From Candidatus Uhrbacteria bacterium (GTDB lineage: Bacteria > Patescibacteriota > Patescibacteriia > UBA9934 > GWF2-40-263), in NCBI GenBank assembly GCA_016219925.1, contig JACRJU010000013.1, positions 64,980-102,565 on the forward strand: a stretch of 37,586 bases of DNA, read 5' to 3'. The translations under genes and the position numbers were made by a program. Below the pieces are notes generated by a model. It was given only the letters and a program-made list of their open reading frames with translations. It was not told the origin of the DNA and searched no databases. Shown in pieces: positions 3,658 through 31,836 of the stretch; the stretch's first letter is position 1; each line of letters begins with the position of its first letter.

Positions 3658-6600
3658 ATGACGAATTCTATTGCAAAGCGCACATTGACCGTTGCCGTTG
3701 CCGCCGCCACGATTCTGTGGTCCGTCGGTTTCGCAACGCTCGTGCCACAACAGGCCTCCGCCGCTTCTTACGGCAGTCTGATCAAGGGCACGACGCTTTC
3801 GACCGTTTATTACTACGGTTCGGATGGTCAGCGCTACTCGTTCCCCAACGAGAAGACCTACTTCTCTTGGTATAACGATTTCTCCGGAGTGACGACGATT
3901 TCCGATTCGGAACTCGCCAGCATCACGCTCGCTGGAAACATTGTGTACCGCGCGGGTGCACACTGGGTCAAGATTACGAGCGATAACAAAGTTTATGCCG
4001 TTGCCAAGAACGGTTCCATCCGTTGGGTGGAGTCCGAGGCGGTGGCTAAGGGTCTCGCAGGTGATAACTGGAACCAATACATCGATGATGTTCCAGATGT
4101 CTTCTTCGTTGACTACTCCGTTGGTGATTCTCTCACCAGCGCGGCAAATGGTTACGAGGGTGCGCTCGTGAAGAGTGGATCTGACACCTACCTCATCTGG
4201 GGCGGGAAGAAGATGAAAGTCGACAGCGCAGGAATGACAGCCAACATGTTTAAGTCTGGCTTTGTCCTCTCCGGCTCTGGCGTCAACCTCGGAGGCCTTA
4301 CCGCTGGAGACGCGGTTTCCAGCAAGCTCGCTTATTTGACGGACGCCGCCCAAAAAGTGACGACCGCTGAAGTGGTGAGTTCAAAGGATGTCTCAGTCAG
4401 TTTTGCTGGCTCGCCATCCGCTTCAACCTTGATTGCCGGCCAGGGCGTTGCCGATTTGGCACACGTCACCTTGACCAACAACTCGGGTTCTGAAGTGAAA
4501 TTGACAAAATTGACCCTCAAGCGCTTGGGCGTCTCTTCGGACACGACCCTTGCCAACCTGTACTTGTTTGATGGGAACGTCCGTTTGACGGACTCCGCCA
4601 CCATTTCCGATGGCAAAGTGACCTTCAACAACAGCGCAGGTATGTGGACCTTGGCCGCTGGTGCTGCCAAGACGCTCAGCATCCGCTCGGACATTGCGGC
4701 CAGCACAAACGGCCAGACCGTTGGTGTCAAACTCGCCGCCGCGTCTGATGTTGGATTCTCCAATGGCGGAAACGCTTCTGGCGCTTTCCCATTTGAGGGA
4801 GCGATCCACACGATTGCTTCTTCTCCAAGCACCTTTGGAACGGCTGACTTCACAGGCAGTACGACTCCAACCGCGGCTACAGATGTTGACCCACAGGAAG
4901 GTATGCGCGTTTTTGAGCGCTCACTTTCTGTTGGTTCAAACGAGCTCTGGCTCAAAGCTGTTCGTTTCCGCAACATCGGCTCTATTGATGCCGTTGATAT
5001 CAAGAACTGGCAGCTTTACGTCGGTGGCGTGATGCGCGGAAGCGCGGTCGCGCAGGAAGATGTAGACGGCTATATCACCTTTGACTTCTCTGCTAGCCCA
5101 ATTGAACTCAAGACAGGCACGCACCAAGTCAAAGTATTGGCTGATGTGATCGGCGGCTCCGGCCGCACCGTGACGGTGGGTCTTCGCAACAGCGCGGACT
5201 TCATCGCCTACGATTCCGATTACAACCAGCCCGTCCGCCCAACGGTCGGCGCAAGCACCTTCTCCGCTATGGATGCCGGTGCCCAGACGATCGCCAGCGG
5301 TTCTCTGACCTTTACCAAGGCTTCCGATTCACCTTCCGGTGATGTTGCCAACACCGCTTCGGGCGTGACGCTCGGTAAGTGGAATGTCAAGGCCTTCGGT
5401 GAGAAGATGAAAGTCGAATCTCTGCGCTTCGCGTTTGTCGAAAGTGACAGTGAGGCTGTCGGATCCCGCAATGGCGCCGTGTTCTTGAATGGCGTCCAGG
5501 TCGGAAGCACGGCAACCCTCAACGACACAAGCTCCACCACAGCCTACACGGCTTACACCTTCGGTTCATCCTTTATTGTTGAGCCAGGTAAGCCAGCCGT
5601 GCTCGAGGTCCGCGGCGACATCTATGACGCTGACGGAACAAACAACATCGAAGCCAGCGACACCTGGATTGCCCGCATCGTTGACATGAACAACTTGAAC
5701 AACGTTCAGCGCATGACCTCTGGGAGCTACATTGATGCTCCAGATGGCACCGCTGTTCCTGCCAACACGCTTACGATCCGAACCGCCGCTCTGTCCGTGG
5801 CTCGCAACGGTTCCTACGCGAACCAGACGACCATTGATCCAAAGACGGCCTACAAGATCGGTTCCTTCTCAGCCACAGCCGGAACAACCGAATCAGTGAA
5901 CCTGACGGACTTCGCTGTTGACTTTGACGGAACGGACACCGCGACCTCTGATACTTCAGAGCCAGCCGCTGGTGACATGTACAACCTGTACGTGAAATAC
6001 GGTCCTGCCAACAACATGATCACGACCAGTACGAAGGGCGCGATTTCAGAAACGTCCAACAGCTGGTCCATCAACTACGAGTTGAAGCCGGGTGAAACGA
6101 TCTACTTCGATGTCTATGCCGATATCGATACCGCGATCTCGACCGGTGAGGTCATTCAAACAGCCTTTGACGTGAACGGAACAGGATCCAAGTCGGGTTC
6201 CTCGCCGTCCACCAGCAAGCAGGCTGGACAGACCGTGACCATCACAGCGGGCACCTTCACGGAATTCAACGATGATCAGCCGGTTGCCGCCCTTGTGGCC
6301 GCCAACCAAGAGGTCGTCGCCGCGAAGTACCGCTTCAGCGCAACCAATGACGATTACCTCATCAAGGAAATGACCACGAGCGTTGCGAGTGCAACCGCTT
6401 CGGCCCTCGTCAACGCGGTTCGCCTCTATGACGGAAATATCCTGGTTTCATCCACGGTGTATGATGAGAACTCTCTGACCCGCGCCACATGGACCGGGTT
6501 GAGCATTCCCGTCAAGGCCAATGTTTCCAAGATTTTGACCGTGAAGTATCTCTTGAACAGCGCCGGAGTTGGCGCCGGCACCTCCCAAACGGATGTGGCC

Positions 6601-14107: not shown

Positions 14108-14186
14108 AGAGATTGAGTCATGATGTCGAAGGGAACAACGGCGACAAGTCCGTTGGCCCGGAGACATCATGACTCAATCTCTTTTG
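14108..14186 (+). ncRNA. Structured RNA element, copy 1: 20-bp outer stem enclosing conserved 35-nt core, followed by TTTT
   Basis: AGAGATTGAGTCATGATGTC - GAAGGGAACAACGGCGACAAGTCCGTTGGCCCGGA - GACATCATGACTCAATCTCT TTT. Core is shared with 30455-30489. Confidence 0.75.
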
Positions 14187-14208: not shown

Positions 14209-14874
14209 ATGAAACTGATCGCCGTTATCCCTGCCTACAACGAAGAACAAACTCTAGCCGATGTGCTCAAGCGCGCGCGGCCTTTTGTGGATGGTTTGAT
14301 TGTTGTGGATGATGGATCCCGTGATCGAACAAGTGATATCGCTCGGACACAAGGGGCGGTGGTTGTTCGTCATGTGATCAATCGTGGCTTGGGTGCTGCT
14401 TTGGGAACAGGCTTCGCTTTTGCTCTGCGTTGCGGAGCGGACGCCGTGGTCACCTTCGATGCCGATGGTCAACACAACCCAGAAGAGATTTCGGCGTTTG
14501 TTTGTGCTCTTGAGAAAGGGGCAGATGTGGTGATTGGTTCACGCATGATGAAGTGTTTGGGGATGCCGTGGTATCGACAAGTGGCGAACGTTCTTGGAAA
14601 TCTCGTGACGCTCGGTTTATTTGGCGCATGGGTGACCGACAGTCAAAGCGGTTTTCGCGCACTCACGGCGTATGCGCTTCGGACCATTCAGCTCAAAACA
14701 GACCACATGGAAGTTTCCTCCGAACTTATTGCAGAGGCACGTCGTCATCGCTTGCGCCTCGCAGAAGTGCCGATCACCGCGATCTATACAGACTACTCGC
14801 TTTCCAAAGGCCAAAGCTTTTCAACAGGCATCAAAACCCTCATCAAACTGATCGTTCGAAGGATAACACAATAG
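14209..14874 (+). CDS. Family 2 glycosyltransferase (polyprenyl-phosphate hexosyltransferase/DPM1-like)
   Basis: MKLIAVIPAYNEEQTLADVLKR...LIVVDDGSRDRTSDIA...VTFDADGQHNPEEI. Confidence 0.88.
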   Translation: MKLIAVIPAYNEEQTLADVLKRARPFVDGLIVVDDGSRDRTSDIARTQGAVVVRHVINRGLGAALGTGFAFALRCGADAVVTFDADGQHNPEEISAFVCALEKGADVVIGSRMMKCLGMPWYRQVANVLGNLVTLGLFGAWVTDSQSGFRALTAYALRTIQLKTDHMEVSSELIAEARRHRLRLAEVPITAIYTDYSLSKGQSFSTGIKTLIKLIVRRITQ

Positions 14875-29325: not shown

Positions 29326-30408
29326 ATGAAAGCCCTCATTGCCGCTGGCGGGCATTCGACCCGTCTGCGCCCTATCACGTGGACCCGCAACAAGCATCTG
29401 ATTCCGCTTGCCAATCAGCCAATGCTTTTGTTTCCGATCCGAAAAATTATCGACGCCGGCATCACGGATATCATCATCAACGTCAACCCCGGCGAAGTCC
29501 AACTCATGGCCGACGCCCTTGGAGACGGAAGCGCGTATGGCGCGCATTTCAAATATGTCGAACAGCGCGGAGGAGCCAAGGGGCTTGCTCACGTCGTTGC
29601 AAACGCGGAAGAGCATTTACGCGGGGAACGCTTCCTGTTTTTTCTTGGCGACAACATCATTTTGGGAAGCATTAAAAAATTCGTTGATCGATTTCAAAAC
29701 GAACAGCTCGATTGTATGATCGCGCTTTCGCGCGTGAAAGATCCCCAACGGTTCGGCGTGCCAGAGTTTGATGAACACGGACGGCTCGTGCGTACGATTG
29801 AAAAACCGGCCCAGCCCCCCTCACCGTTTGCCGTGACCGGCATCTATCTGTTCGACGACCAGTTTTTTAGCGCGTTCAAAACCATCGAACCGTCCGCCCG
29901 AGGAGAATACGAAATCACAGATGTCATCAGTTGGTATATTCAAAATGGCAAAACCGGCCATGAAGAAATTACCGGGTGGTGGAAAGATACCGGCACGCCC
30001 GATGCTCTCATCGAGGGTAATGCGCTTATCATGGACGATTTACCGCGCGAGTATTTTTGTATCGAGTGCGATGTGCCAGAAGCGGCTCAAATTCAGGGGC
30101 AAGTGAGCATCGGCAAGGGGACGCGCGTGAGTCCGGATTGTTTGATTCGCGGTCCGGTCGTGATTGGAGAAAATTGTGAGATCACTTCTTCTTATATCGG
30201 GCCGTACACGGCCATCGGAAACAAGGTTAAAGTAAAACAAACCGAGGTTGAGCATTCAATCATTTTTGATGGAGCGATTATTGATACGACTCGGCGCATT
30301 GTAAATTCGCTTATCGGACTCAATGCCACACTCGTTGATTATAAACGCACCCATCCAAAAACCGGCCATCGGTTAGTGGTCGGTGATAACAGCTTTGTGG
30401 AACTTTAA
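29326..30408 (+). CDS. rmlA: Glucose-1-phosphate thymidylyltransferase, long form with C-terminal hexapeptide/beta-helix domain
   Basis: MKALIAAGGHSTRLRPITWTRNKHLIPLANQPML...FFLGDNI...WWKDTGTPDALIEGN; C-terminal RGPVVIGENCEITSSYIGPYTAIGN. Confidence 0.85.
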   Translation: MKALIAAGGHSTRLRPITWTRNKHLIPLANQPMLLFPIRKIIDAGITDIIINVNPGEVQLMADALGDGSAYGAHFKYVEQRGGAKGLAHVVANAEEHLRGERFLFFLGDNIILGSIKKFVDRFQNEQLDCMIALSRVKDPQRFGVPEFDEHGRLVRTIEKPAQPPSPFAVTGIYLFDDQFFSAFKTIEPSARGEYEITDVISWYIQNGKTGHEEITGWWKDTGTPDALIEGNALIMDDLPREYFCIECDVPEAAQIQGQVSIGKGTRVSPDCLIRGPVVIGENCEITSSYIGPYTAIGNKVKVKQTEVEHSIIFDGAIIDTTRRIVNSLIGLNATLVDYKRTHPKTGHRLVVGDNSFVEL

Positions 30409-30433: not shown

Positions 30434-30514
30434 AGACCTCATAAATATTTTGTCGGAGGGAACAGCGGCGATGAGTCCGCTGGCCCGGAGACAAGGTATT
30501 TATGAGGTCTTTTC
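30434..30514 (+). ncRNA. Structured RNA element, copy 2: 21-bp outer stem enclosing conserved 35-nt core, followed by TTTCTTT
   Basis: AGACCTCATAAATATTTTGTC - GGAGGGAACAGCGGCGATGAGTCCGCTGGCCCGGA - GACAAGGTATTTATGAGGTCT. Two outer pairs are U.G on the plus strand, indicating plus-strand RNA. Confidence 0.75.
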
Positions 30515-30528
30515 TTTACGTCATCCAG

Positions 30529-31836
30529 TTACCGTTGCAGACGTTTTCTGAATCCGCCCCCCTCTTTCGTTATTCCTGCGATCCACGCTCCGTCTTCTTC
30601 AAACCAATAATCCGCGACTCTCAACCCTTCCACAAGAGTTGTTTTATTAATCTCCCCGCGCCGGTCGAGTTCTTGGGCGTACACATTTCCGCCCGTTTCA
30701 AATACAACGACTTTGCCTTGTGCGTACCAATGCAGATCATGAATGGGTTGGCTGAGTCGCGTCACCGTGACACGATTGTGAGTGGAAGGGTCATAGCGCT
30801 CGATCGCAAAACCATCGGTAAACAGAAGTCCATGAGTAGATTCATCAAACGTCCACTCGGTCGCGTCACTGTTCAGGAGGATCGGTTCGGTTTTTTCGCG
30901 AGGGTCAATCAAAATCACACGGCCACGCAACGTGTCTTCGACTAAAAGATAGGGGTCGGGTGCAGGGACAAAACGATATGAACCGATTGGGAGATAAGCC
31001 AGAATACTCGCGATGCCGTCCGGATTCATCGTGGAAAGGATACTACGGTCAGCGGTGTTTTGGATGAGCAGACGGTCATTTCCATTGGAGGCGATAGCCA
31101 TTGCCGAGAAGGGAAGAGGGGTTGTGGCCCCCGTGAGGAAATCCACTTCGCTCACCTTTTTGTCATCCAAAAGATACCCTCGTTCGTTTGCCCGCGCATC
31201 AAACACCATCGTCGTTCCGTTGTTCAAAGTTCGGATGATCTTGCGTGTTTGGATATCGACGATGGAATCAGCCACAAAGAGATAGCGCCCATCCTGGGAC
31301 CAGAGTCCTTTTTTCAACCGGCTTGGATCCGTTGTTGAAATGAGAGCGATACGTGCAAGATCGTTATCTATTTTTTTTCCCCAGATTTCATAGCCGCCTG
31401 TAATTTTTTTAAAAAAAGCAACCGTCCCCGTTTGACCATGCACGAGAGATTGTTCAAAATCTTTGGGTGCAGGCTGACTCGTAGGAGGTTCTGTCAAAAA
31501 TAAAACGATGTTGGAGGCAAAGATGCTTTGGCGACTCACGACATCAAGTGTTTTTTGCCAAGAGGAGTAGTCGGGTTTTTCCACGCGGATGAGATGTGCA
31601 CCCGGCCACACATCATCAATGACCGCGGGAGTGTGCTCTTTGCGCTCTTGTCCATCAATCCATACGGTTGCTCCTTTCGGTAGTGAACTCACGCTCACAA
31701 TGCCGGTCTGGACGATTTTTCCAGAACCAGGGTGGTAGCGATATCCCGCGGTATACAAAACAACCAAAGGAGCACTTATCAAAAAAGCCAACACGAAGGT
31801 GAAAAAAAGAATAGGCCTCCAAAAGCGGGACAACAT
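30529..31836 (-). CDS. PEGA-domain membrane-anchored protein with beta-propeller-like C-terminal region
   Basis: TM anchor, then GIVSVSSLPKGATVWIDGQERKEHTPAVIDDVWPGAHLIRVEKPDYSSWQKTL (PEGA). Confidence 0.8.
   Translation of the reverse strand: MLSRFWRPILFFTFVLAFLISAPLVVLYTAGYRYHPGSGKIVQTGIVSVSSLPKGATVWIDGQERKEHTPAVIDDVWPGAHLIRVEKPDYSSWQKTLDVVSRQSIFASNIVLFLTEPPTSQPAPKDFEQSLVHGQTGTVAFFKKITGGYEIWGKKIDNDLARIALISTTDPSRLKKGLWSQDGRYLFVADSIVDIQTRKIIRTLNNGTTMVFDARANERGYLLDDKKVSEVDFLTGATTPLPFSAMAIASNGNDRLLIQNTADRSILSTMNPDGIASILAYLPIGSYRFVPAPDPYLLVEDTLRGRVILIDPREKTEPILLNSDATEWTFDESTHGLLFTDGFAIERYDPSTHNRVTVTRLSQPIHDLHWYAQGKVVVFETGGNVYAQELDRRGEINKTTLVEGLRVADYWFEEDGAWIAGITKEGGGFRKRLQR

Follow-up and report, generated by a model that had tools for sequence, protein, structure and literature searches.

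The structured element that occurs twice in the window, the whole stretch of 37,586 nucleotides of a Candidatus Uhrbacteria genome (G000; 874 kb) analysed here, is best read as a member of a previously undescribed family of palindromes scattered through the genome, similar in kind to the REP elements and the Rickettsia palindromic elements (RPE) but belonging to neither. Copy 1 is formed by a left arm (14108..14127, + strand), a conserved 35-nt core (14128..14162, +) and a right arm (14163-14182, +) that close a 20-bp outer stem, followed by TTTT up to 14186. Copy 2 has the same layout on the same strand, with a 21-bp outer stem that includes two G.U pairs (left arm 30434..30454), its core at 30455..30489, and a right arm (30490-30510) running into TTTT up to 30514. 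Re-examination bore out both copies and the five differences among the 35 core positions reported by a first-pass annotation, as well as the inner fold described there. The core of copy 1 passes from a GNA/GGA internal loop through GGG/CCC, an AA/G loop and a 6-bp stem to a CGAYRAGU apex. Both copies were far more stable than dinucleotide shuffles (z = -9.9 for copy 1 and -7.7 for copy 2), with 0 of 200 shuffles equally stable in either case. Full pairing of the outer stems, also claimed there, holds for copy 1, and for copy 2 only if the two G.U pairs are counted. The copies differ in setting: a glycosyltransferase gene (Pfam Glycos_transf_2) starts with an ATG at 14209, 22 nt downstream of the end of copy 1, and copy 2 occupies a convergent gap, where an NTP-transferase gene on the + strand ends at 30408 and one for a PEGA-domain protein on the - strand ends at 30529.

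Beyond the window, a degenerate core pattern matched 20 places in the genome, compared with zero for the reversed control pattern, and a covariance model built from those 20 matches located 23 scattered copies. Extending the search to 73 genomes of the order identified eight carriers: five genomes spanning two genera, with 23 copies in the window genome, 11-13 in G001 and 27, 16 and 27 in the remaining three (G006, G024 and G032), and a further three genomes (G005, G018 and G060) with one copy each. The carriers identifiable by contig name are Candidatus Uhrbacteria or Parcubacteria metagenome-assembled genomes (MAGs) of one family, within which presence is patchy even among closely related genomes and most genera are without the element. 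The rest of the order yielded no copies, and neither did 380 genomes sampled across the phylum, the latter in a weak search with few candidates scored in each genome. No copies were found in IMG/VR, phages or plasmids, and viruses, phages and plasmids were rejected as carriers on that ground. The covariance models of Rfam 15 matched neither the window element nor related loci, the long form described below included, in agreement with the first-pass annotation, whose author did not recognise the core as a named family; published work on hairpins in Uhrbacteria or on palindromic repeats in Patescibacteria yielded nothing relevant.

Across 102 copies, the anatomy is that of a conserved tip on freely varying arms. 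The outer stem of ~21 bp varies in sequence and keeps its pairing, and its outer ends hold almost no sequence information. Inward of it lies a 3x3 loop (5'-GNA/5'-GGA) with an A invariant on both sides, followed by the GGG/CCC pairs, AA facing G, an inner stem of six pairs and an apex of either C-GANNA-G-U or the shorter C-GANA-G-U; the cores fall into two types, the short apex usually going together with a purine mismatch at the third inner-stem pair. Double changes were seen in 27 of 30 pairs and 94% of cells were paired, falling to about 33-41% when partners were slid by 1-3 columns as a control. The compensatory A-U to G-C change first noticed between the two window copies is real and recurs across the family. 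The first-pass annotation had named three outcomes that would count against it, and the opposite of each was observed: further copies exist, Rfam holds no match, and the inner stem covaries. Outside the arms there are almost no conserved positions and no conserved promoter or flank, so that an sRNA gene is unlikely; an own promoter or a longer conserved transcript was rejected on the same evidence. The conserved unpaired and non-canonical positions belong to the fold of one strand, and the purines among them suggest recognition as a folded single strand.

Mismatches within the arms also point to one strand. A G.T mismatch on the strand of the element is an A.C mismatch on the opposite strand, and in the genus of G006, G024 and G032 the arms hold 70 G.T against 16 A.C, mismatches that are not fully independent of one another; a model-free count gave 74 against 24. 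The ratio was 31:8 in copies antisense to the host transcript and 21:3 in sense copies. An origin in host transcripts predicts a reversed bias in antisense copies, and the lack of any such reversal argues that the strand of the element itself is, or was, folded, with the proviso that copies and mismatches are non-independent observations. The bias was absent in G000 (11:11) and G001 (9:10).

Gene context, called with a simple purpose-made gene finder, placed 72 of the classified copies between co-directional genes, 16 in convergent and 6 in divergent gaps and 5 within tgt, the gene for tRNA-guanine transglycosylase (TGT). Orientation relative to the transcript was even among the tandem copies (40 vs 32), and a rule of orientation by replication strand was rejected, no consistent relation being found. 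Copies are enriched close to the 3' ends of genes and between convergent genes, as with copy 2. This would fit a decorated transcription terminator, or a stabiliser of mRNA 3' ends, that works in either orientation and has a protein-bound tip, as would the mild enrichment of TTTT after arms facing a nearby gene 3' end (15 of 65, vs 6 of 85) and the A/T-tract flanks on several copies in the genus of G006, G024 and G032 (e.g. AGAGCGG...CCGCTCTTTTTT). We nevertheless regard such a role for the family as unlikely. The T-rich run that the first-pass annotation saw after both window copies is there, but most copies in the family are without a T-tract, and the features of an intrinsic terminator are found in the window copies individually rather than in the family. 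Several copies are tightly squeezed: 2-14 nt separate them from a stop codon and 7-12 nt from the start of the next gene in the same direction. A strong terminator in copy 1, so close upstream of an ATG, would silence the glycosyltransferase gene unless a promoter sits within. At L115:4688 a separate terminator-like hairpin stands upstream of the element; the G.T bias, moreover, is independent of transcript strand, and the element lies inside tgt in seven genomes. Individual copies such as copy 2 may possibly terminate transcription, which would not explain the family as a whole.

Many copies share their site across species, with flanks 70-90% identical. In the genus of G006, G024 and G032, 7 of 17 orthologous copy pairs are inverted relative to each other, and in G006 an inverted copy (L096:2808) stands close to the place orthologous to that of window copy 1, with incomplete alignment of the flanks. 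Cores at orthologous sites were scarcely more alike than random pairs (distance 0.11, compared with 0.145). Arms at shared sites are up to 80-87% alike and several such pairs carry different core haplotypes, with type-2 and GTG/CAC haplotypes occupying sites where the orthologue bears another. Point mutation would require repeated identical multi-base switches, making core exchange or re-insertion the more likely explanation. Empty sites exist in relatives, too diverged for a target-site duplication to be read, and no clean one was seen. At L009 and L013 of G000, three copies share 141-161 bp extending past the hairpin, apparently as recent larger duplications. Inversion, haplotype turnover at fixed sites, compensatory re-matching of arms and these longer duplications could all arise if the element were a DNA palindrome that does not truly transpose and persists passively through the repair that its hairpins provoke: cruciforms or hairpins on the lagging strand would be cleaved, and repair from other copies would swap and invert the core and make the arms match again. 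Such an account would leave unexplained both the many unrelated sites and the conserved core in single-copy genomes, and does not predict the strand-specific G.T excess; we consider it improbable.

In G005, G018 and G060 the sole copy lies within tgt, in frame and each time in the same loop, and G000, G001, G024 and G032 also carry a copy in that loop. The insert keeps the frame open in either orientation, and the insert-bearing TGTs occupy three separate positions in the TGT tree. G006 (97% complete) yielded no tgt gene, although its relatives have one. The tgt cores of G005 and G060 are identical at 40 of 40 positions, in a variant unique among the copies here, and stand inverted between unlike arms; fourfold sites are 48% identical. 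Either the core is selected as nucleic acid or the tgt loop has been recurrently re-entered, although this pair needs care given the recorded contamination of G060 (9%). Selection at the protein level was rejected, as the two orientations encode unlike peptides, and binding of TGT to its own mRNA through a UGU loop was set aside, since G005 has the element in inverted form and most loops contain UGU on neither strand. The tgt genes of G012, G023, G025, G026 and G028 hold other, seemingly unrelated repeat insertions in the same loop, marking it as a permissive insertion spot in this bacterial family. A core conserved in genomes with only one copy would be compatible with a host function too; however, a chromosomal DNA site that host selection maintains for protein binding or organisation, which would account for a core strongly constrained even as a single tgt copy and occurring in either orientation, is very doubtful given that most genera of the family are without the element, that GC skew and gene strand bear no consistent relation to it, and that the conserved unpaired positions belong to the fold of one strand.

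Some copies bear additional hairpins in the apex, and one genus carries a long form with ~124 nt between the arms, whose extra hairpins lie between GGGA and the inner stem and whose full-length copies are 89-100% identical in G006, G024 and G032 (L294-L302 and L304-L307). Intermediates are present. In G006 some copies have most of the long form within a different outer palindrome, and at L297-L300 and L302 the palindrome enclosing it is CCCTGAGCTTGTCGAAGGG...CCTTCGACAGGCTCAGG. Since the short form spans four genera and only one has the long form, derivation of the long form by nesting is more likely than the reverse path, internal deletion of the long form. In the long copies inspected by eye, no transposase gene adjoined the element. 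A second dispersed structured repeat of ~90 nt (GAGACAGACGGGCCGACTTTTTCTTGGCC...GGCAGAAAAAGCGTCCCGTAACTGTCTC) also occurs in G006, G024 and G032, sometimes near the first (L090:2800-2890, L097:2800-2890 and 5530-5625, L093:955-1045, L112:12875-12965 and, on the minus strand, L095:3230-3325); it has no Rfam match, and its 29 predicted pairs show little covariation.

Taken together, random orientation relative to genes, inversions, tgt inserts, patchiness, empty sites and nested forms are the marks of a mobile repeat, and the family shows what is generally expected of mobile palindromic repeats: copies that are scattered and patchily distributed, and relatives in which a site is empty. The first-pass annotation had favoured a functional RNA over a transposon end. 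It was right that this is a structured, covarying family, and its sense that a folded single strand matters is supported by the excess of G.T over A.C; a terminator, processing site or ligand-binding element is at odds with these same marks, including inversion at orthologous sites, in-frame tgt inserts in both directions and variants both nested and internally shortened. REP elements move as folded single strands, and the element described here would undergo copying or exchange with its own plus strand in hairpin form, ssDNA being a more likely intermediate than RNA. The non-canonical motifs of the core would be recognised by a putative mobilising or repair enzyme and the arms would need only to pair, allowing their sequence to drift and vary by locus; hosts may have come to use some of the copies at gene ends as terminators. 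We place about even confidence in this reading of an ~80-nt, family-restricted mobile palindromic repeat with a folded plus-strand intermediate, a core recognised by a putative enzyme and arms that merely pair. More tentatively, in several hosts the hairpin may move without a Y1/RAYT partner, its plus-strand tip being transmitted and re-entering palindromes either way, swapping tips, nesting and finding a harbour in tgt. No Y1 transposase (PF01797) was found in G000, G001, G018 or G024, MAGs that are 91-94% complete. A Y1 transposase was rejected as partner because its presence does not track the element, as was a reverse transcriptase, which showed no correlation with it.

How small bacterial palindromes move and remain palindromic is an old open question, for which three related species with many orthologous sites, a strand bias in mismatches, inversions, tip swaps and nested forms offer a natural experiment. 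The family also provides a structured repeat that persists in frame within an enzyme gene of Patescibacteria, and a warning that RNA-like covariation does not necessarily identify a cis-regulatory RNA.

Among known systems, MITEs (NEMIS, RUP, ERIC, CIR and similar) are likewise short, non-autonomous, multi-copy and palindromic, but are defined by conserved terminal inverted repeats, whereas here the centre is conserved and the arms are not, and no clear target-site duplication accompanies the copies, the empty sites being too diverged to read one. REP elements are also intergenic palindromes, found mainly downstream of genes, between unidirectional or convergent genes (PMC3733652). The Uhrbacteria element differs in its length of 80 nt rather than 20-40, in lacking a GTAG or CGTC tag, conserved and unpaired, next to its stem, and in a host genome in which no Y1 (RAYT) transposase was found. 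RPEs are small palindromic repeats of reduced genomes that also occur in frame within protein genes (PMC10969869), a likeness shared by the present element through tgt. However, RPEs enter many genes and encode a conserved peptide, whereas the Uhrbacteria element is known in frame only from tgt, in both orientations and with unlike peptides; most of its copies are intergenic, and it is the 35-nt tip that is conserved while the arms are free to vary.
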